DNA from: a virus | Virus record (IMG/VR): IMGVR_UViG_3300002242_000758 | Span: 6,185 to 29,345 of that record | Length of the DNA: 23,161 nucleotides | Strand: one strand, 5' to 3' | Part shown: positions 1-16,689 of the stretch, piece by piece | How positions within the stretch are numbered: position 1 is the first letter of the stretch | Layout of the letters: each line of letters starts with the position of its first letter | Position numbers and translations under genes: made by a program | The notes under the pieces: model-generated | The model's input: only the letters and a program-made list of their open reading frames with translations | Databases searched by the model: none | Told to the model about the DNA's origin: nothing

Positions 1-987
1 AAGAAATTAAGAATAAAATATGATGCATTTTATAATAGAGTAGTAAAAGCTGTAACTGAATTAGTTACTCCTAGTTTTGTAGCTATTGACAGTTTGACTG
101 AACTAGAATCATCTAAGACAGCTGATGTTGTTTTAAATGGAGATATAGATTCTAGTAATGTCGTATTTGCGCAACAAGGTCTGTTTAAAACTAAATTTAT
201 CAAAGACTTACCGAGAATGTCTAATAAAGCTAATATATATTTCTTATTAACTGCTCATGTTGGTAAGGATATACAATTAGCAGCTAGTCCATATGCGCCT
301 AAGCCTACTAAGGCTCTCCAGTTTATAAAACATGGAGAAAAAATAAAAGGCGTAAGTGATAAATTATTTTTCCTATCTTCACATTTGTGGCAATCTAGCT
401 CAACAACACCTCTAATAAATCAATCAACTAAGGGTCCCGAATATCCTATAAATGAAACTGATAATAATACGGATCTATTTTTAGTTAGATTATTGATGTT
501 AAGATCAAAATCTGGTCCTTCTGGAATAACAGTAGACCTCATAGTTAGCCAAAAAGAAGGGGTTCTACCTAGTTTATCTGAATTCCATTTTATCAAAACT
601 ATGAAATATGGATTAGAAGGAAGTAATAGAAGTTATGCACTATCCCTTTATCCTAATTGTAAATTATCTAGGACTACTGTAAGAGGTAAAATAGAAAAAG
701 ATCCTAAACTTAGAAGAGCACTAAATATAACTGCTGAAATGTTGCAAATGACACAGTATATGCAGCAATATAAAAAATATTTCTGTACACCAGCCGAGCT
801 ATATGAAGATATTAAAAAACAAGGGTATGATTGGGATGATATTTTAGAAAATACAAGAGGATGGTGGACTATAAAAAATTACAGTACTAAATCTAAATTC
901 CTGTCTACTTTAGATTTATTAAAAATGAGAGTAGGGGAATATACCCCATATTGGTATAAGAAAGATAAAAAAGGAGCTAAAAAATGA
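1..987 (+). CDS. RecA-like ATPase/recombinase (UvsX-type), C-terminal part, 5' truncated
   Basis: The reading frame is open from base 1, so the gene starts upstream of the window; the first in-frame alternative start, TTG at 94, has no ribosome binding site and cuts into the ATPase core. The visible protein begins shortly before a Walker B-like strand, FVAIDSLTEL, followed by a strand NIYFLLTAHVGK that fits the RecA sensor region. Further on come KIKGVSDKLFFLSS and RSKSGPSG, then a C-terminal helical part with KLSRTTVRGKI. This order matches the RecA-like recombinases annotated in jumbo myophages; I recall it from that family and did not search. Expected role: strand exchange in recombination-dependent replication. 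A DnaB-type helicase is the main alternative because the Walker A region is outside the window. The stop overlaps the next start (ATGA), indicating translational coupling. Confidence 0.6.
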   Translation, partial: KKLRIKYDAFYNRVVKAVTELVTPSFVAIDSLTELESSKTADVVLNGDIDSSNVVFAQQGLFKTKFIKDLPRMSNKANIYFLLTAHVGKDIQLAASPYAPKPTKALQFIKHGEKIKGVSDKLFFLSSHLWQSSSTTPLINQSTKGPEYPINETDNNTDLFLVRLLMLRSKSGPSGITVDLIVSQKEGVLPSLSEFHFIKTMKYGLEGSNRSYALSLYPNCKLSRTTVRGKIEKDPKLRRALNITAEMLQMTQYMQQYKKYFCTPAELYEDIKKQGYDWDDILENTRGWWTIKNYSTKSKFLSTLDLLKMRVGEYTPYWYKKDKKGAKK

Positions 988-10947: not shown

Positions 10948-12747
10948 ATGGAAAGAGGCATCAAACTTGATGACAACTTAAATCAAACAGGAATGGATGA
11001 GTTGTTAGGTGGCGGTAAGTCTGAAAATGAAACTAATGCTAAGAAAAGTTTGAATATTGTTGGCCTTAGCGGTCTAGACACAATGCTGTTGGAAGACGGA
11101 AGTCAAGAAGCCCTACAAAAATTCAGTTCTAAAGTAGCTGAAGTTTTGACTGAAGGAGCTATTAAGACTAAAGTCTTTAAAGTGGATAAGGAAAGACTTG
11201 GTCTAGGCTATAGCTTCGTTATAATAGCTACCCAAGCTTCTAATGGTAAAGTGTACTATTTTAGTGCATTGTTGGAAGTTACTGGCAGACAGCCATTAAC
11301 TGTTAAGCAAATTATAGACGAGCTTACAGTTAAGAATAGTACTGCTATTTTAGTAACTAGCGATGCATTTGATGGTACATTTTATAATGTCGCTGAAGAG
11401 CTCTTAAGAAGATCTTTCGAAAAGGTCACAGGTCTTAAGAGCTTGGATGGAGTAGTGGTGCCTTATAAGAGTGATTTAGTAACTACGGCTGAAGTAGTTG
11501 CTAGATATGCTCACAATAGGCTTTTAGTAGTATCTAAAATGGATACTAAAGAACTTAGCGACCTATCTTTTAGAGCTTTAAGGGATTTGGAAAGAAATTC
11601 CAGTGTTAACCTAGATATTAAGTTTAACACTGGGCTCACTCTAAATCCCGTTGGTAGGGTTGTTAGGAGTGACTTCAATGTAGAGTCTAGCATTGTGTCT
11701 AATGTCAATGTTAGATCTCTACATGAAATAGGTGGTAGAAAAAGATTAGCAATGGCGTCTGGATATTTAGAATATTTCGTTTCAGAAATGAAAAATGAAT
11801 ATACCGGCCAAACTACAAATATAGCGACTCCAATGATAATCTTAAGCGAATTCGTTAGCAGAGCGAATACATTAAATTATGTGTTAACATCAATAATTAA
11901 CGCAACTGCATTCACTAACCGCTCAACTCTTGGAGCACTTATTATTGAAAAAGATGCCGGCCCATTAAACGTTCTTTTCAATTATGGTGGTGAGCCAGGC
12001 AAATTTGGGGAAAAGTTGAGTTTTAAAGATCCAAAGGCTAAAAGAGAATTAATAAATGATATAATTAACAAGCATATAGTCAGCACGCCTATTTTTGCGG
12101 TAGAGGTAGAAATATATGGTGCTAACTATAGTCATATGTCTCCATTTGCCGCATTGGCTAATAGTGAAAGTTTAGTGCCTGCTACAAAGGATATTATAGA
12201 TGGAGCGTCCCTGCTAGTAGGCGCGCCTATTGAATCTAAGAATGTTTTGGCTGAACAGCCAGCTATACTTCCAATGGGAGAGTATATAGATGCTAATGGG
12301 GATACAAGGGATCTTAGAGAGATAGACCTAGCTTTCATTTGCAAACATAGTAATGATATTAAGCTTATATATGAATGGATATATTCAACTGCTACACCAC
12401 CAGCATGTATAGAGGCAACTGGAAAAGATCCTTATACGTTACGATTAGAAATATATAATAAACTTGCCAATATGCTTGGCATAACTCCAGTAATTACTGG
12501 TAAAGTTGCTAGAATACCGCTTAATGGTGCATTTGTGGACGAAATAACCAGAAAGGCAATGGCAGCTAGATATTATCCAGTGCCAGTTAATTCTGATATT
12601 GGATATAATGAAATCAATAATCTTCAAGCATTATCTGGTATCTATGCGAACGCAACTATGGGGGCAACTGGACTTGGCATGCCTACATTCGGCAATAGCT
12701 TCAATAGCCCTATCCCAGGGGTTAATGTTAGCTATTATAGAAGATAA
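10948..12747 (+). CDS. Probable major virion structural protein, 599 aa
   Basis: The ATG is 6 nt after AGGAGG, the best ribosome binding site here. Codon third positions are visibly richer in C/G than in neighbouring genes (frequent GGC, GCC, AGC, CTT), a usual sign of very high expression, and the gene has its own promoter motif and strong terminator. After a Gly/Asn-rich N-terminus (GMDELLGGGKSENE) the protein has mixed alpha/beta content; notable stretches are GGRKRLAMASGYLEYF (about residue 267), the central RSTLGALIIEKDAG, GEYIDANGDTRDLREID (about 448) and an end rich in Gly/Asn/Ser. I recall a related pattern in virion proteins of jumbo myophages, but cannot decide between tail sheath, capsid or another abundant component. 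Mass spectrometry of virions or structure prediction would resolve it. Confidence 0.55.
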   Translation: MERGIKLDDNLNQTGMDELLGGGKSENETNAKKSLNIVGLSGLDTMLLEDGSQEALQKFSSKVAEVLTEGAIKTKVFKVDKERLGLGYSFVIIATQASNGKVYYFSALLEVTGRQPLTVKQIIDELTVKNSTAILVTSDAFDGTFYNVAEELLRRSFEKVTGLKSLDGVVVPYKSDLVTTAEVVARYAHNRLLVVSKMDTKELSDLSFRALRDLERNSSVNLDIKFNTGLTLNPVGRVVRSDFNVESSIVSNVNVRSLHEIGGRKRLAMASGYLEYFVSEMKNEYTGQTTNIATPMIILSEFVSRANTLNYVLTSIINATAFTNRSTLGALIIEKDAGPLNVLFNYGGEPGKFGEKLSFKDPKAKRELINDIINKHIVSTPIFAVEVEIYGANYSHMSPFAALANSESLVPATKDIIDGASLLVGAPIESKNVLAEQPAILPMGEYIDANGDTRDLREIDLAFICKHSNDIKLIYEWIYSTATPPACIEATGKDPYTLRLEIYNKLANMLGITPVITGKVARIPLNGAFVDEITRKAMAARYYPVPVNSDIGYNEINNLQALSGIYANATMGATGLGMPTFGNSFNSPIPGVNVSYYRR

Positions 12748-12839: not shown

Positions 12840-13784
12840 ATGTATGATGTATATACTGGAACACTAGGAGCTTTCTTTAATAGAGAAAAAGTAGAATATG
12901 GACTTAACACTGTTTTAGCTAATGTTGATGGAAGTCTGAGTTATGAAGTCGCTGAGGATAGAGTCAGAGTGATTATATTAACTGGAGCTAACGATATAGA
13001 AAAAGAAGTTCCTACTTTTCAGCACCCTATTATTTTTGAAACAGTTAAAGGTGATAGGGCAGTAGCATGTGACTTAAGACCATTTATGAAATCTAATTTA
13101 GAAAATATTATAACTGTAAGAGATAAACTAGCTGATAAATATAATGGCATGTTACAATTGTATAGGCTAATTCTTACTAAGTTATTAGTAGAAGATGAAG
13201 GATATTGGCTAGGGGCGCTAAATGACCATCTTAGAGAATCATTTTCTACTATTATAAAAACAGTTATATCAGTTTTGACTTATAACGAATCAGTAAAAAG
13301 ACCTGTTGAGATTGTTAGCGATTTGCATTATGCATCTGTAGATATAGATAAAGATATAAGCGATAAAAGTAAAATTTTAGAATTACTGCCTAGAGATGAT
13401 ACTAGTGATCTTTTAAGAGGCGACTATACTTATATTTATAGGAAAATTCTTGATGGTGATTTAATTTTGCCTAGTAGGACAATAGGTAGTTTGACTAATA
13501 ACATAATAAATGTTTTAGATAGTAAACGTGCGTCTGGTATAAATGTAGATATCTTAGTTAAATCTTTATCAGCAGGATTTTTTAGCTTAGATAGAAAAGG
13601 TATAGCTATAGCTATGGTAGAAGATAAACCTACTTTAGCAGCATTGCTTTATATGGTTATAACCGAAAGTGTGAACAGCAAATCTACTTTTAGAAGAATA
13701 ATCATGGGCGCAAAGAGATTTACAAAACCTAATGACTTTGTTAAAGGCTTTAAAAGAGTTATAGATGAACAAATAGTAGGCTAG
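12840..13784 (+). CDS. Conserved jumbo-phage-type protein of unknown function, 314 aa
   Basis: AAAAAAAGGA lies 6 nt before the ATG. The N-terminus (MYDVYTGTLGAFFNREKVEYGLNTV) followed by a beta-rich region and VPTFQHPIIFE, then CDLRPFMK, resembles a protein family I recall next to major virion protein genes in large myophages. The middle (about residues 95-150) is helical, and the C-terminal ~90 residues contain ALLYMVITESVNSKSTFRRIIM. No enzymatic motif is visible. Context directly after the 599-aa gene suggests a structural or assembly partner. Its stop codon lies inside the terminator palindrome. Confidence 0.7.
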   Translation: MYDVYTGTLGAFFNREKVEYGLNTVLANVDGSLSYEVAEDRVRVIILTGANDIEKEVPTFQHPIIFETVKGDRAVACDLRPFMKSNLENIITVRDKLADKYNGMLQLYRLILTKLLVEDEGYWLGALNDHLRESFSTIIKTVISVLTYNESVKRPVEIVSDLHYASVDIDKDISDKSKILELLPRDDTSDLLRGDYTYIYRKILDGDLILPSRTIGSLTNNIINVLDSKRASGINVDILVKSLSAGFFSLDRKGIAIAMVEDKPTLAALLYMVITESVNSKSTFRRIIMGAKRFTKPNDFVKGFKRVIDEQIVG

Positions 13785-13804
13785 TAACATATGTTACTAG
13801 CCTA
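13777..13804 (+). terminator. Palindromic terminator overlapping the stop codon
   Basis: A 28-nt perfect palindrome (TAGGCTAGTAACAT and its complement) includes the last codons and TAG stop of the 314-aa gene and is followed by ATGGTTTTATTTTTT. Being fully palindromic it could also act as a protein-binding site. Confidence 0.65.
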
Positions 13805-13830
13805 TATGGTTTTATTTTTTCTAATAGATA

Positions 13831-13848
13831 GATGTTCTGAATAGAAAA
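13831..13848 (+). promoter_or_regulatory. Variant TTTGAAA-type element (GATGTTCTGAATAG)
   Basis: GATGTTCTGAATAG lies after a terminator and about 15-28 nt before the ATG at 13859, and aligns with GATGTTTTGAAAAAATAG upstream of the gene at 12840. Weak match to the core heptamer; function inferred. Confidence 0.3.
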
Positions 13849-13858
13849 AGGAGTATTT

Positions 13859-15994
13859 ATGGCGGATTTAGCAAACAGTTTTAAATTTAAATTAGAAGAG
13901 TATAAGAGAAATATAGATCCTATAAAACACTATATGAAAATAGCATCTTTTGTTAGGGATAAATTAAAACAAACAAATAATAGCAGAGAAGTCATTAAAG
14001 AATATATAAAATCTAATAAGAAGTATCAAAATCCTACTGTATATTTTAGAGAAAGAGATTTAGATGGTAATATATCTATGAAAAAAGAATCTCTTAAATC
14101 ATATTTAGATAATGTAAAAAAAGAAGGTAATATTATGGTGCCTTCTGGAACAGTTTATTTTCCACCTAATAAAAAATTATCATTACACAGTGAATTTACG
14201 ATGGTGAATAAGAAAGAACGCGACGTTCATAAAAAACAGGCATTTAAATACAAAATGGAAAAACTTTGGGACAAATTTAATTATCATAATACTATACAAA
14301 AAACTAAAAAAATATTTAATAACAGTCTGTCAGGGGCTTATGCTAGTGCTGGGACTATTCTTAATAACTCTTCAGCTCATTATACACTAACTAGTATGAC
14401 GAGAGCTATGTCTGGTATTGGAAATGCTATATCCGAATCTATCATTAAGGGTAATAAACATTATAGAAATCCTGATGTTATGTTAAGTCACATAGCTACT
14501 GTAGCATTATGGGCAGATTTAGAAAGGATAGAGAGAACTGTTAAAAGGTATCATCTATATGTACCTACTGCTGATGAGGCTATGCAATATCTATTAAAAA
14601 GTAGTTCTAAATATTGGAGAGATATAGATAAAGAACTTATTATTTATAGATTCTTAAAATCTCTTAATGTGTATGAACGAGCGGCAGTTATTTATCATAT
14701 AGATTTTTATGCTATACGTACTTTTAACGATAATTTCGTGAGAGGTATAATACATGATTTTTTAGAATATGAGGTTATTAATTTTACTAGAGAAGAAGCT
14801 AATAATATTATAGATAATACGAGCGAGGTAGTTCGTAATATATCTATATATAGCCTATCTGATAGATTAAAGGGCAAACAAAGAAATGATTACACAGATG
14901 AAGATATGGTAAACTTAGCTTCACTAGTTTTGAATGTAGAAAAAATTATGGGAACATTAGGTGAGGTTATAAGAACATTTTTTATAACATCAGTTTTTCC
15001 TCCAAACATTTCAAGAATAAAAGATATGGTTAGGGAGGCTATAGTGCTATCAGATACTGATAGTACATGTGCTACATATGAGGACTGGCCAGACTGGTAT
15101 TTTGGTAAACCAGTTATGAATTCTCATGCAGTAGCTATAAGTAGTTTAATAATGTTTATAACTACAGAAGTTATGGACCACTATATAAAGTTGTTTGGAG
15201 TTAACCTTAATATAAGTTATGAAAAAGCTAAAGTATTAGCCATGAAAAATGAGTTCATGTGGGATGTGTTCGTTAATACTAATGTTTCTAAACATTATTA
15301 TGCTAATATAACTATACAAGAAGGAAATATTTATGATTTCGAGGATAAGAAAGCCACATTAGAAAAAAAAGGAGTTAATCTTATAGCTCCTAATGCCTAT
15401 GGTCCTATTAGAGATTTAGTAGACGATATGATGGTATCTATTATGGAAGATGTTAGAACTATTGGTAAGATAGAATTGACTAAATATCTTAATATGGTTA
15501 AAGGTGCTGAGCGATTACTTATTGATAAATTAAAAGAAGGCTCTCCAGAAATATTTAAACTAGAAAAAATAAAACCAGCTAAAGTTTATAAAAATGATCC
15601 TAGTCATTCTCCATATTTCTATCATCTTTTATGGGAAACTATATTTAAAGAAAAATATGGTTCAGCACCAGATCCAACATATATAGCCGTTAAGATTCCA
15701 GTTATAGTTAAAAGTAAATCAGATATGGAGAAATTTTTAGATAGTATTAAGGATAAAAACTTAGCTGATAAATTTAGAAAATTTTTAAAAGATCATGACA
15801 AGTCTCATATCGGGACATATAGGTTACCATTAGTTAAAGTATATGAGAAAGGTATACCTGATATTTTAAAAGATTGGATAGACGTTAAGAGAGTCGTAAA
15901 AGATAATTGCAATCCTTTATATATGGTTTTAGAAACTATTGGGTATTATTTAAAAGAAGATTCTATCTTAACAGAATTAGATGGTATGATCTAA
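13859..15994 (+). CDS. Family B DNA polymerase, C-terminal (palm/thumb) half; split polymerase
   Basis: The ATG follows AAAAAGGAG at 5-6 nt. The 711-aa protein carries VPSGTVYFPPNKK (94-106) and basic residues as found between motifs A and B; motif B, QKTKKIFNNSLSGAYASAGT (147-166), matching the K-x3-NS-x-YG pattern with Ser replacing Tyr; motif C, SDTDST (398-403), with the two catalytic aspartates; and the post-C KHYYANITIQEG...KKATLEKKGV (478-506), matching KK-Y-A and K-G-E/V segments leading into the thumb. The 3'-5' exonuclease domain and a normal motif A (D-x2-SLYPS) are absent; the N-terminus reads MADLANSF...YKRNIDP, which aligns at or just after motif A, NIDP paralleling T4 gp43 NISP. 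About 230 residues separate B and C, implying a large insertion (roughly 205-375). The upstream half must be encoded elsewhere. It is followed by a 26-aa peptide and a dNMP kinase, consistent with a replication role. Confidence 0.75.
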   Translation: MADLANSFKFKLEEYKRNIDPIKHYMKIASFVRDKLKQTNNSREVIKEYIKSNKKYQNPTVYFRERDLDGNISMKKESLKSYLDNVKKEGNIMVPSGTVYFPPNKKLSLHSEFTMVNKKERDVHKKQAFKYKMEKLWDKFNYHNTIQKTKKIFNNSLSGAYASAGTILNNSSAHYTLTSMTRAMSGIGNAISESIIKGNKHYRNPDVMLSHIATVALWADLERIERTVKRYHLYVPTADEAMQYLLKSSSKYWRDIDKELIIYRFLKSLNVYERAAVIYHIDFYAIRTFNDNFVRGIIHDFLEYEVINFTREEANNIIDNTSEVVRNISIYSLSDRLKGKQRNDYTDEDMVNLASLVLNVEKIMGTLGEVIRTFFITSVFPPNISRIKDMVREAIVLSDTDSTCATYEDWPDWYFGKPVMNSHAVAISSLIMFITTEVMDHYIKLFGVNLNISYEKAKVLAMKNEFMWDVFVNTNVSKHYYANITIQEGNIYDFEDKKATLEKKGVNLIAPNAYGPIRDLVDDMMVSIMEDVRTIGKIELTKYLNMVKGAERLLIDKLKEGSPEIFKLEKIKPAKVYKNDPSHSPYFYHLLWETIFKEKYGSAPDPTYIAVKIPVIVKSKSDMEKFLDSIKDKNLADKFRKFLKDHDKSHIGTYRLPLVKVYEKGIPDILKDWIDVKRVVKDNCNPLYMVLETIGYYLKEDSILTELDGMI

Positions 15995-16028: not shown

Positions 16029-16109
16029 ATGGGCCATTTTATAGACCAACATACGTTTATAATAATCTTATTAATCTTATTGTTATTACTTTTACCAGAA
16101 TATTTATAA
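16029..16109 (+). CDS. 26-aa single-pass membrane peptide
   Basis: AAAAAGGA lies 5 nt before an ATG, and the frame encodes a short polar N-terminus (MGHFIDQHT), a run of about 13 Ile/Leu/Phe residues and PEYL before TAA. The stop runs into the AAAAGGAG of the dNMP kinase gene, so it sits tightly in the operon. The hydrophobic core is long enough for one short transmembrane helix. Role unknown; a phage membrane micropeptide or leader peptide coupled to kinase translation are both possible. It is below usual gene-calling length. Confidence 0.55.
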   Translation: MGHFIDQHTFIIILLILLLLLLPEYL

Positions 16110-16122
16110 AAGGAGAAATTAG

Positions 16123-16689
16123 ATGGAAAGACTTATTGTTTTAACTGGATATAGTAGATGTGGAAAAGATACCACTGCTAAAGCTTTAAAAAATAGATAT
16201 AAGAAAAATGGTAAAAAAGTCGATATTTTTAATTTTAGTAGGGTACTTAAAGAAATTTTATCTAAGATATTGGATATAAGTATAGATAAGTTAGATAAGT
16301 TAAAAAATAATCGTGTAACTATAGAAACAAAATATTTTAGTTTTGATATTAGAACATTGTTAAAAAGAACAGCTGATGTTTTTAGAGGTTTAAGAGGTGA
16401 TGATTTTTTCGCTAGACAGATAATAGACTCTATAACAGAATCAGAGGCGGATGTTATTATTATAACGGATTTGAGATTTCATGTAGAATATGAAACTTTA
16501 AAATCTTTAGGCAAAGAGTTCGTTACAGTAAGAGTTATAAGGAATGACCCCGAATGTAAAGCGAGAAAAGGGGATGAAGAAGTTGATGCCTTAGCATACG
16601 ATATAAGACTTATCAAAGAGGATAATGGTAAATGCATCGATAAACTATACAGCCAAATAGAAGAAAAATATAAACTTATGGTAATATAG
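16123..16689 (+). CDS. Deoxynucleoside monophosphate kinase, T4 gp1-like
   Basis: The ATG is 7 nt after AAAAGGAG. The 188-aa protein starts with a beta strand and Walker A, GYSRCGKDTTAKAL (9-22), followed by a LID/NMP-binding helical region containing LLKRTADVFRGLRGDDFFARQI (79-100), and VIIITDLRFHVEYETLK (111-127), the Walker B-like strand and D-x-RF-x2-E motif typical of phage dNMP kinases. RVIRNDPECKARKGDEEVD (137-155) matches the late conserved part. It would phosphorylate dNMPs to dNDPs using ATP to supply nucleotides for phage replication. Length is shorter than T4 gp1 (about 241 aa) but the motifs are intact. It lies downstream of the polymerase half. Confidence 0.8.
   Translation: MERLIVLTGYSRCGKDTTAKALKNRYKKNGKKVDIFNFSRVLKEILSKILDISIDKLDKLKNNRVTIETKYFSFDIRTLLKRTADVFRGLRGDDFFARQIIDSITESEADVIIITDLRFHVEYETLKSLGKEFVTVRVIRNDPECKARKGDEEVDALAYDIRLIKEDNGKCIDKLYSQIEEKYKLMVI

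Follow-up and report, generated by a model that had tools for sequence, protein, structure and literature searches.

We observed that the open reading frame at positions 13859-15994 (+) of the window (the whole 23,161-nucleotide stretch of viral DNA analysed here, part of a 73-kb viral record) encodes a phiKZ-type divergent family-B DNA polymerase, and that this protein would be the C-terminal subunit of a two-chain replicase. The 711-aa protein has an ATG start and carries motif B, motif C and the thumb, while in relatives the exonuclease and motif A are encoded by a separate gene. It is extremely likely that motif A lies on this partner and not on the polymerase chain, and very likely, we infer, that the two chains assemble into one working polymerase.

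The profile search that the initial annotation had proposed as a check returned a polymerase and no other fold. The Pfam family PF20286, "Divergent Family B DNA polymerase", matched the protein end to end (positions 3-696/705, E=1.5e-164) at 549.5 bits, where the curated cut-off is 25.7 bits, and phrog_2927 (DNA polymerase) matched with E=3e-167. It is thus near certain that the protein belongs, over its full length, to the divergent family-B polymerases of phiKZ type. Relatives were found in 291 public phage records, chiefly phiKZ-related, mostly with 25-31% identity over most of the length. phiKZ gp50 and SPN3US gp18 (PF20286, phrog_2927) are like the window protein in being full-length collinear with it, with the same motifs B and C; they also lack the exonuclease and motif A, and have the same partner family in the genome. 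Their identity to the window protein is about 29%, the latter coming from a branch of AT-rich metagenomic phages. The AlphaFold2 model of the window polymerase had a mean pLDDT of 90.2 and a pTM of 0.85. Its best PDB matches in Foldseek were RB69 gp43 structures (prob 1.00, E only ~2e-3), and no relative of solved structure was detectable by sequence.

The initial annotation had placed NNSLSGA at residues 154-160 and SDTDS at 398-402, with KHYYAN and KKATLEKKGV further on, and we recovered all of these. In an alignment of 46 homologues N155, S158 and G159, then D399, T400, D401 and S402, and in the thumb-proximal part K478, Y480, K504 and G505 were invariant. As these columns are invariant across the 46 homologues, motifs B, C and KHY are not chance resemblances. 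Motif B, the motif C DxD and the KxY of PF20286 polymerases were all found in the window protein as invariant columns, and the glutamates E193, E465, E488, E502 and E551 were also invariant.

The chain opens with an N-terminal extension without motif A (aa 1-93; 13859..14137 +), upstream of the fingers; this extension may help to dock the partner chain. The fingers start at aa 94-133 (VPSGTVYFPP...R..K; 14138..14257 +). Here the profile alignment to the fingers region of yeast Pol delta was weak (E=0.69), and the stretch was aligned by eye to the SPNG of T4 at gp43 residue 454; R121 and K125 within it are invariant in the 46 homologues. Motif B (KIFNNSLSGA, aa 151-160; 14309..14338 +), where K151 is invariant as well, is followed by a long multi-helical insert before motif C (about aa 199-394; 14453..15040 +), which is all-helical in the AlphaFold2 model. 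A lineage-specific helical insert has been reported for the divergent phiKZ-type PolB family (PMC7824862). Motif C (SDTDS, aa 398-402; 15050..15064 +), with its two catalytic aspartates, aligned by profile to motif C of T4 gp43. KHY (aa 478-480; 15290..15298 +), which corresponds to the KxY motif of PolB, fell opposite the KKRY region of gp43 in the alignment.

As had been claimed from the first reading, neither an exonuclease domain nor a D-x2-SLYPS motif was found in the protein, its Pfam match being PF20286. The window protein therefore does not hold motifs A, B and C and an exonuclease in one polypeptide, as a single-chain PolB does; it shows both PF20286-family traits, the long helical insert before the motif C hairpin and the lack of a fused exonuclease. 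The profile alignment of the polymerase chain with gp43 covered gp43 residues 600-733, from motif C to the thumb (76.6%, E=2e-5). The PF00136 matches to PF20286-type polymerases in ten relatives begin only at model position 97-103, and those compared (e.g. G031, G030, G026) fall inside the PF20286 ORF.

We also considered whether the polymerase is self-sufficient through a diverged motif A of its own (MADLANSF, or the D/N at columns 58/71), the exonuclease only proofreading in trans. Iyer et al. 2021 (PMC7824862) treated the exonuclease as a possible standalone associate, with a motif A in it unmentioned, and column 71, the best acidic column in residues 1-98, is Asp in 39/46 homologues, followed by column 58 with Asp in 34/46. 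However, no residue of this pre-fingers region is an invariant acidic one across the 46 homologues, and the window protein has Asn at both columns. The partner holds an intact and invariant motif A, which would be pointless in a mere exonuclease, and we consider a self-sufficient polymerase quite improbable. The proposal that MADLANSF is a diverged motif A had to be given up: the stretch is not conserved (phiKZ gp50 starts MTAFAQPNPFLKDVNDYHRDID and the homologue at L014 starts MSSVEQIFKIPKEQY), and the real motif A is intact in the partner. A "DYVNSYP" near the N-terminus of the PBS1 homologue was taken as chance, since the homologous SA1 protein is without it.

The half that is missing here belongs to a gene family of its own, phrog_3011 (phiKZ gp82, SPN3US gp44, OBP gp99), which supplies the N-terminal domain, exonuclease and motif A that the window chain lacks. 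The C-terminal part of SPN3US gp44 reads ...ADADLTQAYPSATNMMNQSRETT..., after which come about 65 more residues. This pattern, with exonuclease motifs ahead, is common to phiKZ gp82, OBP, VP4B and FLC8, and is likewise present in Bosolaphorus, Miami, phiR1-37 and Staphylococcus phage PALS_2 (where the annotation of the partner begins inside the exonuclease). In an alignment of 31 partners we observed invariant ExoII (D226, W231, N232, D236), ExoIII (Y369, D373) and motif A (D479, D481, Y486, P487) residues, and D140/E142 of ExoI were invariant or nearly so. D481 of motif A aligns with the catalytic Asp of gp43. The partner profile matched RB69 gp43 with E=3e-16 in three collinear pieces, namely ExoI/II (96-232), ExoIII (283-346) and motif A (405-434). 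With hhalign, the partner against seven gp43 sequences gave 99.1% probability and E=5e-19, and the alignment stopped at motif A.

Motif A was carried by 71/71 uninterrupted partner ORFs from viral contigs, its start lying 68-150 aa from the C-terminal end; the pattern used for this count demanded a motif-A-like string and a minimum length, so that interrupted or aberrant genes were excluded by design. Introns or differing start sites account for most of the 22 partner loci set aside from it. The partner of the nearest relative has DLDITSAYPS near its C-terminus, where it reads IYDLDITSAYPSATAAANISTATTHR. When modelled alone, it was confident over residues 1-430, with RB69 gp43 as its fold match (E about 1e-13), while pLDDT fell below 50 over most of 432-510. 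The invariant motif A, and with it the best-conserved residues of the partner, falls in this low segment. The low values would fit a strand that takes up its fold only in contact with the other chain, and they could also come from a poor alignment there; we take them as support, not as proof. We also looked at the "putative exonuclease gp064" of RAY, which is cytoplasmic (PMC10299810), as a candidate partner. It was rejected because the gene order is against it, the partner lying at ~231 kb in the close relatives of RAY.

By alignment, the split sits between motif A and the fingers, at about T4 residues 430-454. In T4 gp43 coordinates the polymerase chain starts just past motif A, about 90 residues before the fingers. 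The initial description of the gene as split at motif A was thus right about the split and wrong about its place: since motif A is intact in the partner chain, the break falls just downstream of it, not through it. We found no distant homology between the partner and polymerase chains. When the two were concatenated, they were collinear with gp43 2-897 only at a very permissive threshold, and as the score equalled that of the partner alone, this alignment was not counted as evidence.

A similar division is seen in the T4-like split gp43A/gp43B of Aeromonas phages 25, 44RR and avDM5 and Acinetobacter AM101, likewise cut between motifs A and B. The gp43A and gp43B of phage 25 co-purify and are active, two chains forming one polymerase (PMC2988022). 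The two avDM5 chains span T4 residues 5-500 and 512-897, and their genes are neighbours. The T4-like cut thus falls at T4 residue ~500-512 and the phiKZ-type one earlier, at the position given above; in the phiKZ type, moreover, there is additional sequence at both ends, and tens of kb separate the two genes. The window family shows neither the split near T4 residue 500 nor the closely placed genes of the T4-like pair. Split PolBs of archaea (Methanothermobacter, Nanoarchaeum) also have the PolB active site spread over two polypeptides, and differ from the phiKZ type in split point and lineage.

We further examined whether the two genes occur together. The partner was present in 28/33 records tested, among them the 155-kb contig of the nearest relative, whose polymerase is 64% identical to that of the window; there the partner lies at 151305-152945 (-) and the polymerase at 92227-94296, ~57 kb apart. 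An ORF with ExoI-III and motif A, which the initial annotation had suggested looking for, was therefore found in these relatives and not in the window's own 73-kb record, searched with one sequence and two profiles as queries. The partner is probably absent from this record because the record is a fragment, and for that reason its absence is not decisive. Among public phage records, the polymerase/partner counts by host genus were 81/81 for Pseudomonas, 62/62 for Erwinia, 24/24 for Salmonella, 22/22 for Vibrio, 21/21 for Serratia, 20/20 for Aeromonas and 16/16 for Klebsiella; these cover the seven largest gamma-proteobacterial groups and come from separate searches for each gene, not from record-by-record pairing.

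The polymerase gene itself was present in 23/23 records tested. A complete polymerase gene elsewhere in the genome would have spoken against a split enzyme. Searches of the window's own record and of 22 relatives turned up no complete gene for PolB, PolA or PolC; PF00476 and PF07733 (PolA/PolC families) gave zero matches in the 23 records. What we observed is therefore a distribution of the motifs over two genes, their co-occurrence and no other detectable replicase in the relatives. These results also bear on whether the gene is a degenerate, non-replicative remnant with a structural or regulatory role, like the inactive PolB module of eukaryotic Pol epsilon, with another polymerase copying the genome. 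A chain without motif A and exonuclease would suit such a role. However, its motifs B, C and KxY are strictly conserved, the relatives have no other detected polymerase of these families, the gene is found in every record tested, and DNA polymerase has been listed among the core genes of these phages (PMC10299810). We thus regard a remnant as very improbable.

The least credible explanation is that one ordinary polymerase gene has been separated by an assembly break or by an intron in the contig. Many relatives do have a partner gene broken by group I introns, but the window ORF has its own ATG start, a ribosome-binding site (AAAGGAG, 13847..13853 +) and, between the upstream gene and the polymerase gene, a terminator-like hairpin with a T-run (13776..13805 +; two found against 0.1 expected). 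The same start and the same missing N-terminal half are found in dozens of contigs and in phiKZ and SPN3US, so that the homologues already refute a break. The initial annotation was thus correct in calling this a genuine split of a family-B polymerase gene. Of the clean start that it had described, the ribosome-binding site and the hairpin stood, and the promoter-like element did not, as no sigma-70-type match was seen on the + strand. Phages of the phiKZ-related group transcribe with their own RNA polymerase, and the sigma-70 scan therefore says little.

The interruptions of the partner gene were seen at recurrent places. Group I introns (RF00028) were detected in the partner genes at L130, L131, L173, L180, L187, L188 and L215, and that of Goslar has an HNH-gene insert. 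Motif A itself is cut at the exon boundary, the break separating its two aspartates (...D | LDVxxxYP), in Goslar, L173, L178, L179 (the same contig as L133), L187, L188, L193, L195, L198 and L199, and the partner gene at L208 ends at the same motif A point, at the contig end. A second interruption site, ~32 residues upstream of the motif A break, was seen at L130, L131, L180, L188, L191 and L215. Homing elements prefer active-site codons (PMC2988022), and the motif A interruptions agree with this.

The neighbouring genes indicate the source of the window. A protein at 10948-12747 (+) resembles chimallin, the phage nucleus shell protein (phrog_4795, E=2e-19), and is very diverged, with no Pfam match up to E=1. 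The ORF at 12840-13784 (+) is related to gp28, the vertex-binding protein of phiKZ (PF25614, E=1e-15), with the polymerase gene directly downstream. From these two genes we conclude that the source is a phiKZ-related jumbo phage that probably forms a nucleus. Unlike in phiKZ and SPN3US, the polymerase gene of the window comes after the chimallin-like and gp28-like genes. On its other side it adjoins a deoxynucleoside monophosphate kinase gene (phrog_139, E=6.5e-25; 16123-16689 +). Just 3' of the polymerase gene (16029-16109 +), after a purine-rich stretch, lies a possible hydrophobic micro-ORF of 26 aa, MGHFIDQHTFIIILLILLLLLLPEYL, which may be a single-pass membrane peptide or chance. At 94-987 (+) a UvsX-like recombinase match was seen (phrog_97, E=3e-18) that covers profile positions 186-376 of 506 only; the missing part could be encoded 5' of the ORF, or the recombinase itself could be truncated or split.

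The primary papers on the split are reportedly those of Kazlauskas and Venclovas 2011 and Cornelissen 2012. A "split subunit DNA polymerase" has been published for phiKZ (PMC5105663), gp18 and gp44 of SPN3US were paired as a split polymerase after Cornelissen et al. (PMC5694885), and the exonuclease protein of AR9 was described "with a partial catalytic domain" (PMC5312081). The split is therefore family-wide and already described for phiKZ, SPN3US, OBP and AR9 (same papers). Outside the two primary papers, the accessible literature may nowhere say explicitly that motif A lies on the exonuclease chain throughout the family, and we saw no biochemical work in it on a phiKZ-type pair. In the Bacillus phage AR9, gp152 and gp132 are likewise a catalytic subunit and an exonuclease protein (PMC5312081), and belong to a more distant branch. 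The homologues of Staphylococcus SA1 (L225:1508-3460) and Bacillus PBS1 (L226:1520-3445) have a more T4-like motif B (NSYYG/NSFYG) and VDTDS as motif C, and for this reason may be the least diverged members of the polymerase family.

Since motif A is missing from the polymerase and present on the partner, the catalytic site would be built from two chains, and the suggestion of an active site shared by two polypeptides is supported by the motif A partner gene of the relatives. In the enzyme that we propose, the window chain would form the fingers, which hold motif B, and the thumb, together with the KxY strand and motif C, the source of two catalytic aspartates. The N-terminal domain and the 3'-5' exonuclease would come from the partner, encoded tens of kb away, as would motif A, which holds the metal-binding aspartate still lacking. 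On docking, the motif A strand of the partner would complete the palm sheet next to motif C. Metal-dependent catalysis would require aspartates of both chains, and neither alone would polymerise. This model thus predicts that the chains physically assemble, where their interface lies and that they are catalytic together.

An obligate two-chain replicase might be completed only where separately expressed subunits meet, e.g. in the phage nucleus, so that the split would be a spatial or temporal switch and not a neutral accident, and the motif A introns would mark a preferred conserved homing target. Such a regulatory purpose is speculation, and we hold it to be unlikely. The two-chain reading would locate the catalytic residues of the phiKZ-type replicase, with motif A on the exonuclease chain and motifs B and C on the polymerase chain. 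The exonuclease protein should accordingly not be annotated as a stand-alone nuclease. As the window chain has no sequence-detectable solved relative, the pair is an obvious target for structural and reconstitution work, and the annotated "DNA polymerase" of these phages, if expressed alone, would be expected to show no activity.
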